The notes under the pieces are model-generated. The model made no database searches. It saw only the letters and a program-made list of their open reading frames with translations, and had not been told where the DNA came from. A stretch of DNA of 64,000 nucleotides from Betaproteobacteria bacterium RIFCSPLOWO2_12_FULL_62_58 (GTDB lineage: Bacteria; Pseudomonadota; Gammaproteobacteria; Burkholderiales; SG8-41), in the NCBI GenBank assembly GCA_001772005.1, contig MERI01000002.1, forward strand, positions 1 through 64,000. The letters run 5' to 3'. Positions within the stretch are counted from its first letter, which is position 1. Each line of letters begins with the position of its first letter. The translations under genes were made by a program, and so were the position numbers. Positions 2,746 through 40,017 of this stretch are shown here, piece by piece.

Positions 2746-3489
2746 GTGACCTACGAATCCCTGTTTGCCGAGACCATCCTCATGCGCGGGCACCTGGGCG
2801 ACCAGATCGATGCCTACCTCGCGCGGCCATTCGGCGCCGGGCCGTATCCCGGCGTAGTCGTCATCCACCACATGCCCGGCTGGGACGGGCCGCACAAGGA
2901 AATCGGGCGCCGCTTCGCCCATCACGGCTACGTGACGATCGTGCCCAACCTGCAGTTCCGCGAGGGCAAGGCGACGCCGGAAGAGAACAGCGCCAGCATA
3001 CGCGCGGCCGGGGGCATGCCCGACGATCGCACGATGGGCGACGTGCAGGGCGCCATCGATTACCTGCGCACGCTGCCCTATCTGAGCGGCAAGGTGGGCG
3101 TCATCGGCTTTTGCTCCGGCGGCCGCCAGGCCTACCTCGCTGCCTGCACGCTACGCGGCATCGATGCCGTGATCGCCTGCTATGGCGGTGGCGTCGCCGC
3201 CAAGCCCGAGGAATTGACGCCGCGGCAGCCGGTCGCGCCTATCGATCTCACCAAGGACCTCCAGTGCCCGCTGCTCGGCCTGTTCGGCATCGAGGACACG
3301 CGCCCATCGCCGGAGGACGCAGCGAAGACCGAGGAAGCGCTGAAGCGCCATGGCAAGACCTACGAGTTTCACACCTACGAAAACGCCGGGCATGCGTTTT
3401 TCGCCGTGGACCGCCCGCAGTACCGCGTGCACGCGGCAATCGACGGGTGGAAGCGGGTCTTCGCCTGGTTCGGCAGGTATCTGCGCTGA
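2746..3489 (+). CDS. Dienelactone hydrolase family protein
   Basis: GTG start after AGAGGAG; FCSGGRQAYLAA nucleophile elbow, GHAFF histidine motif typical of DLH. Confidence 0.88.
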   Translation: MTYESLFAETILMRGHLGDQIDAYLARPFGAGPYPGVVVIHHMPGWDGPHKEIGRRFAHHGYVTIVPNLQFREGKATPEENSASIRAAGGMPDDRTMGDVQGAIDYLRTLPYLSGKVGVIGFCSGGRQAYLAACTLRGIDAVIACYGGGVAAKPEELTPRQPVAPIDLTKDLQCPLLGLFGIEDTRPSPEDAAKTEEALKRHGKTYEFHTYENAGHAFFAVDRPQYRVHAAIDGWKRVFAWFGRYLR

Positions 3490-35103: not shown

Positions 35104-35252
35104 ATGGGTGACGGGAAGTGGTGACGAGAAGAGGTGACGAGAAGAGGTGATTATTGATAATTTCTCTTATACCCCGAGGCTTGCCTCGGGCTGACATGTT
35201 TTTGCCGCACGGGCTCAATACCCCGTGCGAGCGGGTTGGCAGTTGGTTTATT

Positions 35253-35427
35253 TACGTAACCCCTTGACGGCCACGAGCAAGTCGCGCGACGTAACCACCC
35301 CGTCGCCTTCGGCGCCACTCCTCCTTGGTAAAGAGGGGAAAATTCTCCCCTCCTCCGCTGAGGAGGGGTGCCCCATAGGGGCGGGGTGGTGGGATTGGGT
35401 GTCACAGAGATAGGTAAAGTTGAATAG
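35253..35427. repeat. Dispersed ~174-bp intergenic repeat, copy 1
   Basis: ACGTAACC..TGACGGCCA.GAGCAAGTCGCGCGACGTAACCACCCCGTCGCCTTCG...GGGGAAAATTCTCCCCTCCTCCGCTGAGGAGGGGTGCCCCATAGGGGCGGGGTGGTG...GATAGGTAAAGTTGAATAG matches 54508..54681. Confidence 0.88.
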
Positions 35428-35657
35428 AAGAATTGACGGGAAGGGTGACGAACGATTCGTTACTTCCTCGCGTGTAGAAATCCCGATGTGATCTGACAGA
35501 GAGTGTCTGATGACAACTCAAACCTGCCATTCATCGGGTGCGTTCGCGCACTGAGCATGTAATCCGCTGTTTGCGGACTTCTTTTTGAATCGGTGTAAAC
35601 TCCGGCACCAGATTAGTCTGTTTTTCGGCATATGATTCAACGTTAGCTCTCTCGACT

Positions 35658-36134
35658 ATGCGCAGCGCTCAAAATACCGGTTCTCGCGGCGTGTTCGGTG
35701 ACATGGCAAGTCTTCTCAAGCATTTGCCGCACCATCAAGAGCCCACCGCACTCATCCTGCTCAAGGGGCACTTGCTCGTCGAAGAGCTTCTCCGCGGCTA
35801 CATCGATCGCAAGCTGCCAAACCCCACTGCGTTCAAGCACGACCAGTTCCTTTTTGCCAAGATCCTCATGCTCTGTCGCGCGCTTACGCCTCCGAACGTA
35901 AAGTCGTGGGCATTTGACGCCGCAAAGAAGCTCAACGACGTTCGAAACGAGATTGCCCATGAACTCGATTCGCCAAAGGTGAAAAGCAAGCTTGAGAACT
36001 TCATCAGCCTCGTCGAGCAGCACGCGAAGAAGTCTGTGTTTCCGCCTAAAGAGCGAGGCGAAGCCCGCCTCTACATGGCCATCAGCGATCTACACAATGA
36101 GCTTGTTCATGTGCTACACGCCAAAGAGAGCTAA
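35658..36134 (+). CDS. HEPN-like protein of unknown function (RX4H motif RNEIAH)
   Basis: LILLKGHLLVEELLRGYIDRKL...KKLNDVRNEIAHEL; ATG 9 nt after a GTTAGCT site. Confidence 0.6.
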   Translation: MRSAQNTGSRGVFGDMASLLKHLPHHQEPTALILLKGHLLVEELLRGYIDRKLPNPTAFKHDQFLFAKILMLCRALTPPNVKSWAFDAAKKLNDVRNEIAHELDSPKVKSKLENFISLVEQHAKKSVFPPKERGEARLYMAISDLHNELVHVLHAKES

Positions 36135-36172
36135 TCGGGTAGTCGTCATCGCAAAACCTCGCGCTACCCGAA

Positions 36173-37129
36173 ATGACCGACCACCTCAACATCACGCTCG
36201 CACTGACGAAGCAAGCCTACGAAAAGCTGACTCGCTTGGTGTCGCTCGCCGAGTTGGAGCGTTTCAACTTCGGCTCCGGGCCGAAGCGCGAGCGAATTGC
36301 CGAGCTACTGAAGAAGCTGAACACAAACATCAATTCCATCCAACGCACGCTCTCCGAACACGTTACGGATTCCTCCGAAGCCCCAATCCTCAGCGTTCCA
36401 CCGGCACATCGCACCTTCTACAACGAAGTCGTGCTTCCGCACGGCAAGTCCTTGCAGCGCGCCTACTTCGAGATTTCCGGCCTCGGCATGCTCATGGACC
36501 TCCTCGATGATCCAACAGCCGAGAGGCCGAAACCGCTCATGCTTAATGCCATAAGTTGGGGGTTGGAGCGCTGGAACGGCATGCTTGACGAGGACGAGTC
36601 TTTCGAGTGGTACGAGCGCGGCTTCAACATCGAAGGCGCGCAGGATCTAGTCGGTATGCCCTGGTTTCAGCCGGACGAATGGGCGCAGAACCTCAAGCTC
36701 TTACAGCCGGTTCTCGTCGACCGCTCGCCCCAAGTGATGCGCGACCATGTGCGCTACCGCCTCACAGAAATCTACCGTGCGTTTTCCTACGGTCTATGGA
36801 TGGCCGCCGTCGCGCTGTCCAGGTCGCTAGTCGAGTTCTCGCTCAAGGCGAACGCCACGCGCCTCGGCATCAGCATCACGTATACGGGAGCAGGTGGGCG
36901 ACCCGAAGACAAGTCGCTCAAACAACTCGGCAAAGAGGTAGCCAATGTACTGCCAGCACTGGCGCCCTCGATCGAAACCGTTCGCGAAACTGGGAACAGA
37001 ATTCTTCATCCCAAGAAGCATGATGTCATCGCGCATCCGAAAGTTATGCGCGCCGAGGCGCTGGACTGCATTCGCGCAGCAAGGCTTATTGTTGAGAACG
37101 TCTACTCGGAAGTGTTCCCTGCCAAATGA
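36173..37129 (+). CDS. DUF4145/HEPN-like protein of unknown function
   Basis: C-terminal ...ARRLGISITYTG-like linker, LGKEVANVLPALAPSIETVRETGNRILHPKKHDV...AEALDCIRAARLIVENVY, resembling DUF4145 'R..GN..AHP' architecture. Confidence 0.55.
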   Translation: MTDHLNITLALTKQAYEKLTRLVSLAELERFNFGSGPKRERIAELLKKLNTNINSIQRTLSEHVTDSSEAPILSVPPAHRTFYNEVVLPHGKSLQRAYFEISGLGMLMDLLDDPTAERPKPLMLNAISWGLERWNGMLDEDESFEWYERGFNIEGAQDLVGMPWFQPDEWAQNLKLLQPVLVDRSPQVMRDHVRYRLTEIYRAFSYGLWMAAVALSRSLVEFSLKANATRLGISITYTGAGGRPEDKSLKQLGKEVANVLPALAPSIETVRETGNRILHPKKHDVIAHPKVMRAEALDCIRAARLIVENVYSEVFPAK

Positions 37130-37216
37130 CGGCTAGTCGCGTAAGGGCTGGCATCTAACCGGAAGTGGAAAAGGTGTCAGGAACCGTTTCTCCAGGCCGC
37201 CAAGCGCCAGTGCGGG

Positions 37217-37304
37217 GCCTAACAATCGCTTGCAAGCGACCGCCAATAGCCTCCGCTCGTTCCTCGCTCCGGCTATTGGCGGCGCCTGAAGCGTGGCGTT
37301 GGAC
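37217..37304 (+). other. Integron attC-like recombination site (R'' GCCTAAC ... R' GTTGGAC)
   Basis: GCCTAACAATCGCTTGCAAGCGAC-CGCCAATAGCC-(19 nt)-GGCTATTGGCG-GCGCCTGAAGCGTGGCGTTGGAC; RYYYAAC/GTTRRRY core sites and perfect 11-bp central inverted repeat. Confidence 0.85.
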
Positions 37305-37332
37305 GTCGAAACACCTCTAGCGAGAGTGAGTG

Positions 37333-37767
37333 ATGAGCACCTCGACCGAGAAAAGCGTCTGGGCGCGCGGCGGAGCGTATGAGCCCTACGTCGGCCGGTG
37401 GAGCCGACTGGTTGCTCGCGAGTTTGTTGAGTGGCTTGCGATTCCGCCTGCTGCCTGGTGGCTCGATGTCGGGTGCGGCACCGGCGCGCTGACCGAAACC
37501 ATCCTCGCGCGCGCGAATCCCGCCCGGGTTGACGGCATCGACCCCGCGGAAGGCTATCTTGCTGTTGCACGCGAGCAGGTCCGCGATCCGCGGGTCCGCT
37601 TCGAAGCCGGCGACGCCCGCCGGCTATCGGCTGCATCCGCGAACTACGACGCCGTCGTGTCCGCATTGGTGCTCAATTTCATCGACGACTACTGGACGCC
37701 ATTCCTCGGGGGGCAGTTTCCCGCGCCCGATTACGCGATGGCGCTGGACGAAGCGGCCCGCTCTTGA
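37333..37767 (+). pseudogene. SAM-dependent methyltransferase with in-frame internal deletion and shortened C-terminus
   Basis: WLDVGCGTGALTETIL motif I present; ...VSALVLNF joined directly to IDDYWTPFLGGQFPAPDYAMALDEAARS, skipping the usual mid-domain. Confidence 0.75.
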
Positions 37768-37839
37768 ACCGCGACGTTAGCTTTCAGAAAATCGTGGGCG
37801 TCTGGAAGTTTTACGCTAGCACAATGAACCGCTATACTC

Positions 37840-37926
37840 TTCAATCGGGTAGGGTTTCGCTTTACGCGAAGTAACAGGGAATCGTGTGCAAATCACGAGC
37901 TGTCGCGCAACTGTAAGTAACGCATA
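37840..37926 (+). ncRNA. Truncated cobalamin riboswitch (5' portion only)
   Basis: TCGGGTAGGGTTT...AACAGGGAATCGTGTGCAAATCACGAGCTGTCGCGCAACTGTAA matches the conserved GGGAAnnnGGTGnAAnnCCnnnGCTGnCcCGCAACTGTAa core; downstream half missing before metE ATG at 37930. Confidence 0.78.
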
Positions 37927-37929
37927 GAC

Positions 37930-40017
37930 ATGCTTACACACAACCTCGGCTATCCGCGTATTGGTAGCCATAGAGAACTCAAGAAAGCCTGCGAAAGTTA
38001 CTGGTCTTCCCGGATCAGCCTCGATGAACTCCTGGACGCTGGCCGGGCCATCCGCCGGAACAACTGGCAGTGCCAGCATGAGGCCGGCATCGATCTCGTC
38101 CCCTGCAACGATTTCTCGTTTTACGATCACGTGCTGGATCTCTCGCTCATGGTGGGCGCGGTCCCCGCGCGCTACCGGCCGCTGCTCGACAAGCCGGATG
38201 CTTCCGGGATGGATTTGTACTTCGCCATGGCGCGAGGCTATCAGAAAGACGGTCTCGACCTCATCGCCATGGAGATGACCAAGTGGTTCGACACCAATTA
38301 CCACTACCTGGTCCCTGAGTTCACGAAGGATCAAACCTTCCGCCTCACCTCGCGGAAGATTCGGGATGAGTTTCAGGAGGCTCAAGCGCTCGACATCAAC
38401 GCCAAACCGGTTTTGATCGGGCCGGTGAGTTATCTGCTCTTGGGCAAGGAGAAAGAACCGGGCTTTAACCGGCTCGACCTGCTCGACCGGCTTCTGCCGG
38501 TTTACTTGCAGATCCTGGGCGAACTTCAAGGTCTCGGCGCGCAATATATCCAGATCGACGAACCCTTCCTTGCGCTGGATTTGCAGGATGAAGCGACGCG
38601 CGCCTATGAATCGGCCTATACCGCGATCGCAAAGGCGTGTCCTGAGCTCAAGATCATCCTCGCCACCTATTTTGCGGAACTCGACGATAACGCCGAGTTG
38701 GCCGCAAGTCTTCCAGTGCATCTTTTGCACTTGGATCTCGTCCGCGCGCCCGCGCAACTGGATCAAGTGTTGTCCTTGATCCCGCCCGAGCTTGGCCTCT
38801 CGCTGGGGGTCGTGGACGGACGCAACGTGTGGAAAAACGATTTCGAGCGATCGTTGGCGCTGATCGGCCGGGCGGTCGAAAAACTCGGCGGCGATCGTGT
38901 CGCGTTGGCGCCCTCCTGCTCGCTGCTGCACGCGCCTTGCGATCTTACGCTTGAGAAGGACGAGGCGGCGTTGCCCGCCGAGATCAAACGCTGGCTGGCC
39001 TTTGCCCGGCAAAAGCTGGATGAGGTCGTCACGCTCAAGTGACTGGCGCAGCCCGAGACCCACCGGCAATATGCCGGCAGGCTCAAGGAGAACATGCTCG
39101 ACATGGAAAGTCGCCGCCACTCGGCCTTGATCCACAGGCCGGGGGTCGAGCAGCGTCTTGCCGCCATCCGTCCCGCCGACACCACACGCCAAAGCCCCTT
39201 CGGCGTGCGTCAGGAAAAGCAACGCGCGACCCTCAATCTGCCTTTATTTCCCACGACCACCATCGGCTCTTTCCCGCAAACCGATGAAGTTCGAAAGCTC
39301 CGGCTTCGTCTCAGAAAAGGCGAACTCACGCCGGAACGGTATGAGGCGGCGATCCGAATGGAAACCGAGCAGGCCATCCGTTGGCAGGACGAGGTGGGGC
39401 TGGATGTGCTGGTGCACGGCGAGTTCGAACGCAACGATATGGTGGAATACTTCGGCGAACAACTGGCGGGCTTCGCGTTCACGGGGAACGGTTGGGTGCA
39501 AAGCTACGGCTCGCGCTGCGTCAAACCGCCCATCATCTACGGCGATGTGGAGCGCCCCGCGCCGATGACGGTGAAATGGTCGCAATACGCGCAGTCGTTA
39601 ACCAGGAAGCTCGTCAAAGGCATGCTCACGGGGCCAGTCACGATCCTGCAATGGTCCTTCGTAAGGGACGATCAGCCGCGCTCGAGCACGGCGAAGCAAA
39701 TTGCCTTGGCGATCCGCAATGAAGTGTGCGATCTCGAGAAAGCCGGGATTCGCATCATCCAGATCGACGAACCGGCCATCCGTGAGGGGCTGCCTCTGCG
39801 CAAGGCAGATTGGAAAGACTATCTCCAGTGGGCGGCGGAGGCGTTCCGGCTCGCTGCCTGCGGGGTGGCCGACGAGACACAGATCCACACCCACATGTGC
39901 TACTCGGTGTTCAACGACATCATCGAGTCCGTCGCCGGGATGGATGCCGATGTGATCACCATCGAAACATCCCGGTCGCAGATGGAGTTGCTCGACGCCT
40001 TCGCAAGCTTCCGTTAG
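37930..40017 (+). pseudogene. metE: Cobalamin-independent methionine synthase, interrupted by in-frame TGA (39040-39042) and missing its C-terminus
   Basis: N-part MLTHNLGYPRIGSHRELKKACESYW...; the frame resumes after [45 protein letters not shown]...[14 protein letters not shown]...[21 protein letters not shown]; the final catalytic region (NPDCGLKTR) is absent. Confidence 0.88.

Follow-up and report, generated by a model that had tools for sequence, protein, structure and literature searches.

A genuine integron attC site and a probable single-cassette element on a betaproteobacterial contig, with integron integrase genes on other contigs of the same assembly

Integron loci that lack an adjoining integrase gene are classed by the number of attC sites they hold. 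In the current default of IntegronFinder 2, a CALIN comprises at least two clustered attC sites without intI (PMC9024848), while a SALIN is a single attC site with no neighbouring intI (Cury et al. 2016; IntegronFinder 2, PMC9024848). Cassettes can also be inserted at attG sites, as PMC12901181 and PMC12444791 cite from Loot et al. (2024, Nat Microbiol 9:228). In Xanthomonas, sedentary chromosomal integrons are accompanied by dispersed CALINs (PMC12444791). As to cargo, integron cassettes have been described before with genes for HEPN proteins, the integron-family HEPN being a predicted RNase or dormancy factor (PMC3710099), and with anti-phage genes, in work that PMC12444791 cites.

The locus described here lies in a window (the whole stretch of DNA analysed) of 64,000 nucleotides, part of the 67,312-bp contig C2 of a betaproteobacterial MAG. 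Comparison of sequences confirmed positions 37217-37304 as a genuine integron attC site, probably that of a single-cassette element, and the element, though real, is an unexceptional case of a type of mobile DNA already known. One attC site was found in the window and the rest of the contig, with no intI nearby, which makes the locus a SALIN; as there is only one attC, it falls below the CALIN default. Hence, the preliminary description of a CALIN/SALIN-like island holds for its SALIN half, and not for a CALIN under the two-site rule (PMC9024848). As in both classes, an attC site accompanies cassette ORFs with no intI adjoining on the contig; unlike a CALIN or an integrase-free case, there is only one attC, and intI is present elsewhere in the host genome. 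Like attG-integrated cassettes, as these are presented in the two citing papers, it stands alone in the chromosome, at a distance from attI, but no empty allele was found here, and its attG-type target, a G|TT, is putative. The Xanthomonas case (PMC12444791) shares with it a resident IntI and cassettes at further loci, whereas the platform of the present host is broken across contigs and its IntI occurs in more than one copy. Moreover, the cassette encodes a HEPN-like motif protein, as do cassettes with integron-family HEPN domains (PDB 3jrt; Anantharaman et al. 2013, PMC3710099), although its ORF1 gave no sequence match to 3jrt in PDB searches. The features of the locus are as follows.

35642-35648, + strand: left core-like site GTTAGCT, 6/7 to GTTRRRY
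35643-37298, + strand: proposed gene cassette, 1,656 bp, two ORFs
35658-36134, + strand: cassette ORF1, 158 aa, HEPN-like, profile matches all below threshold
36173-37129, + strand: cassette ORF2, 318 aa, orphan
37217-37304, + strand: attC site, from covariance model, fold z-score (-3.6) and geometry, the last the same as in attC sites beside IntI in relatives
Layout of the attC site, + strand: R'' (37217-37223), 5-nt spacer, L'' with two extrahelical bases, 37-nt variable terminal structure, L', 6-nt spacer, R' (37298-37304)
37330-37767, + strand: decayed SAM methyltransferase gene, from tblastn against intact homologues of about 290 aa

The bottom-strand hairpin of an attC site is the form recognised by the integron integrase, and the extrahelical bases on its R''/L'' side determine which strand is chosen. 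The site has the ends reported in the preliminary description, namely R'' GCCTAAC (fitting RYYYAAC) and R' GTTGGAC (fitting GTTRRRY), as well as the reported total of 88 bp and terminal loop of 19 nt; the crossover point is between G37298 and T37299. The central stem is indeed perfect, over 12 bp (CCGCCAATAGCC/GGCTATTGGCGG), one pair longer than the 11 bp given before. Folding of the bottom strand yielded -25.5 kcal/mol, a value that none of 200 shuffles equalled, with the R and L boxes paired and the spacer and variable terminal structure unpaired. Two extrahelical bases stand on the R''/L'' side, 7 nt apart, in the same columns as in the sites of relatives. Among the perfect RYYYAAC...GTTRRRY pairs in the 64 kb, this one alone has a stem-like fold. 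The case confirms that one true attC in a stretch of that length can be singled out by reading the raw sequence.

The identification was evaluated independently with a covariance model trained on attC sites that adjoin IntI genes elsewhere in the same order, outside the host genome. This first model comprised 19 sites, with the window site left out; these aligned without gaps outside the trimmed variable loop, their first extrahelical base following L'' position 3 and the second lying 7 nt on, and they share with the window site the geometry R''7-5-L''(3+EHB+6+EHB+3)-VTS-L'12-6-R'7. Such a model, which the preliminary description had put forward as a means of refuting the site, matched it at 30.2 bits (E 5.4e-5), with no other credible locus in the 64 kb. 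The reversed site scored 18.9 bits, so that the + strand is preferred by 11 bits, which supports the earlier orientation, in which the attC forms the tail of the + strand gene lying upstream. A second model, built from 58 attC sites, gave 38.4 bits. Unfiltered covariance searches missed the window attC, a miss that probably reflects a limit on hit length, since default filters recovered it together with sites of up to 126 nt. An Rfam scan of the window showed no attC family match, its sole match being a cobalamin riboswitch at 37835-38073.

Regarding the extent of the cassette, the preliminary description had pointed to GTTAGCT at 35642 and 37776 as compatible borders. Both heptamers exist, and neither matches GTTRRRY, as each has C at position 6. 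The left one is directly preceded by ATTCAAC and is followed, 9 nt on, by the ORF1 start codon; no attC was found upstream of it. Homologues of ORF1, with 27-29% identity, occur in two distant genomes of the class, where they are preceded by GTTAGGC + 9 nt + ATG (G355) and GTTAGCC + 1 nt + ATG (G118); these core positions were read from the sequence, and for G118 the site was placed by visual alignment, with no model call. In addition, a resident attC of the host (positions 3154-3240 of locus L163, on contig C121) ends in R' GTTAGCC, where position 6 is likewise C. Because an attC core site lies 1-9 nt before the start of both distant homologues, the left border at 35642 is supported, and from these core sites together with the resident GTTAGCC the cassette was drawn at 35643-37298. 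In three distant genomes, members of this small HEPN-motif family directly follow a core site. Both ORFs of the proposed cassette lie on the + strand, with 87 nt between the end of the second and the attC, and the GC content of the cassette (57%, vs 63% for the window) is poor compared to the coding flanks. The fused motif RYYYAACGTTRRRY was considered as a scar of lost attC hairpins and rejected: it is not enriched in the genome and is imperfect at 35635. Intergenic inverted repeats of dispersed-repeat type (CCCCTCCTC...GAGGAGGGG) were also observed at 35160-35420.

Downstream of the attC, the methyltransferase gene starts 26 nt after R' and is decayed, with an in-frame internal deletion of about 80-90 aa and a C-terminal truncation; residue 121 is fused to the near-C-terminal segment DDYWTPFLGGQ...DEA, and a stop follows. 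Its nearest homologues show no attC in about 3 kb (loci L094, L095, L096 and L099-L103) or weak attC matches only (L097, L098), and attC neighbours are restricted to more distant homologues (L104, L105, L107). The methyltransferase is therefore probably not a cassette gene, judging from these comparisons. The metE gene (cobalamin-independent methionine synthase; 37930-40016), preceded by the riboswitch mentioned above, is 84% identical to an intact 774-aa gene in genome G014. It is interrupted by an in-frame stop near 39040, terminates at about residue 701 and is a probable pseudogene; a second metE-like gene of the host, on contig C56, is intact and 50% identical. The flanking Amdase gene and metE are not neighbours in any relative examined, and no empty-site allele was found.

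We then considered integrases and attC sites in the whole assembly, a MAG of 277 contigs with 6.25% contamination. As noted earlier, there is no IntI in the window, and the same holds for the rest of contig C2; that reading, nevertheless, depends on the window, as IntI genes sit on other contigs. Using the NCBIfam TIGR02249 cut-off, IntI was called on contigs C211 (492 bits), C168 (479 bits) and C116 (443 bits), and fragments were detected on C161, C255 and C213. The C211 and C168 genes are intact open frames, 70% identical to each other, while that of C116 has two stops inside, and all three lie less than 1 kb from contig ends. The tetranucleotide correlation with the window is 0.99 for C211 and 0.96 for C168. 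At least two of the IntI genes are intact, and about 38 attC matches of at least 30 bits are scattered over the assembly; the site does not come from an integrase-free genome. Such attC sites, together with IntI genes at contig ends, mean that the host has a sedentary integron, or several, in broken-up form, the window attC being an outlying site of it. Contig C121 (5,751 bp, GC 55%) consists almost wholly of gene cassettes, with eight attC sites on one strand throughout, about 0.1-0.9 kb apart, and C103 has six. Another lone attC, one in 9 kb, is found on contig C93 (locus L166, 4216-4275), between two small same-strand ORFs, one of which reads like a PemK/MazF-type toxin (a sequence impression, with no profile). 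Among related genomes, 28 of 60 (the host included) have IntI above the cut-off. In genome G057, a long homogeneous array with more than 40 attC in 20 kb lies beside an intact IntI (L122, G057:C1:277000-296900).

How the element came to its present place can be explained in different ways. It seems rather likely that IntI worked in trans to place a single cassette at a chromosomal site of non-classical type, away from the integron platform. A circular cassette, folded at the attC bottom strand, would have been taken up by an IntI, of which two intact copies lie elsewhere in the genome. The target would be an attG-type chromosomal G|TT just upstream of the methyltransferase gene, which would have decayed later. 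In the resulting join, ...ATTCAACG|TTAGCT-cassette-...attC...G|TTGGAC..., the last six bases of R' (TTGGAC) would be supplied by the target, which before insertion would have read ATTCAACG/TTGGACGTCG. We infer the insertion event and its target, and a resident IntI may still act on the cassette. Several lines of evidence speak for insertion: the match to the attC model, its strand asymmetry and geometry; IntI and about 38 attC sites in the host; ORF1 homologues placed after attC; the absence of ORF2 from relatives; the low GC of the cassette; and the second lone attC on L166. Against insertion weigh the lack of an empty allele, the 6/7 left core and the fragmented, partly contaminated state of the MAG. 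It is possible, though somewhat doubtful, that the locus is instead what remains of a larger array or whole integron, from which intI and the other cassettes were deleted, leaving a degenerate left core behind. Degradation of integrons is a proposed origin of CALINs (PMC9024848), the left ATTCAAC|GTTAGCT could be an attC minus its hairpin, and the neighbourhood is decaying, with methyltransferase and metE both probable pseudogenes. However, no IntI remnant or second attC is present in the window or in C2 64001-67312, and the genome shows no enrichment of the fused AAC-GTT motif. The lack of an empty allele, together with the decay around the locus, keeps this explanation as a rival; insertion, contrary to it, predicts the empty-site allele ATTCAACGTTGGACGTCG.

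Two further explanations weigh far less. The 26 nt separating R' from the methyltransferase start, and the attC sites near some of its more distant homologues (L104, L105, L107), would agree with two adjoining cassettes, one with two ORFs and one with the methyltransferase, ending at the GTTAGCT of 37776, as proposed in the preliminary description. Nevertheless, that heptamer falls outside GTTRRRY and has no attC partner, either with two mismatches allowed or by the two covariance models; the methyltransferase is decayed and truncated before reaching it, and attC is lacking within about 3 kb in three of its five nearest homologues and only weakly matched in the other two. As a result, a cassette border at 37776 is unsupported and a second cassette highly improbable. 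It is harder still to believe that the site is not an attC and merely a chance or unrelated inverted repeat, e.g., a terminator or REP-type element. In first-order Markov simulations of the window (n = 300), pairing over at least 70% between perfect core motifs did arise in 8, one of which also reached -20 kcal/mol or lower. Yet chance would have to account for the covariance score and E-value, the strand asymmetry and the two canonical extrahelical bases in a genome with IntI and many attC sites. Moreover, the inverted repeat is not shared by many non-cassette loci: no other DNA copy was found in the genome itself or in 59 relatives.

Concerning the cargo of the proposed cassette, HEPN proteins are defined by the motif Rx4-6H, in which a polar residue follows R, and by an acidic residue farther upstream (PMC3710099). 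ORF1 carries this motif (RNx3H, with polar N97) as RNEIAH at residues 96-101, in which R96, N97, A100 and H101 are invariant in the three sequences available, and E42 is conserved across the same three. Its profile match to HEPN_RiboL-PSP reached 13.7 bits, below the cut-off of 28.4, and a three-sequence profile searched against PDB found Csm6 at E 0.012, below threshold. The predicted structure, of low confidence (pLDDT 53), had no PDB fold match, and searches of plasmids and phages returned no match. Based on the motif, ORF1 is a probable HEPN RNase-type, i.e., RNA-cutting, protein. ORF2 has no homologues in 100 relatives, 398 other genomes of the phylum, or plasmids; its residues 199-282 match DUF4145 at 13.6 bits, under the Pfam gathering score of 23.1, and its predicted structure (pLDDT 43) gave no informative match in a PDB fold search.

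In genome G118, the next gene, 24 nt after the ORF1 homologue, encodes a 331-aa protein that resembles HEPN_RiboL-PSP (E 1.3e-5, slightly short of the gathering score) and is not alike to ORF2 by BLASTP. An Abi_C-domain gene lies upstream of the homologue (L159/L161), with attC-like sites between. On account of the 331-aa protein and the Abi_C-domain gene, the G118 locus looks like a defence-type cassette cluster. The window cassette probably carries a module of the dormancy, toxin or anti-phage type. A tentative and rather unlikely proposal is that ORF1 and ORF2, the latter possibly with a HEPN-like C-terminus, together make up a toxin or abortive-infection module not described before, which travels as an integron cassette. 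The HEPN-motif cargo fits reports of integron cassettes banking anti-phage genes, and it gives a gene pair to test.
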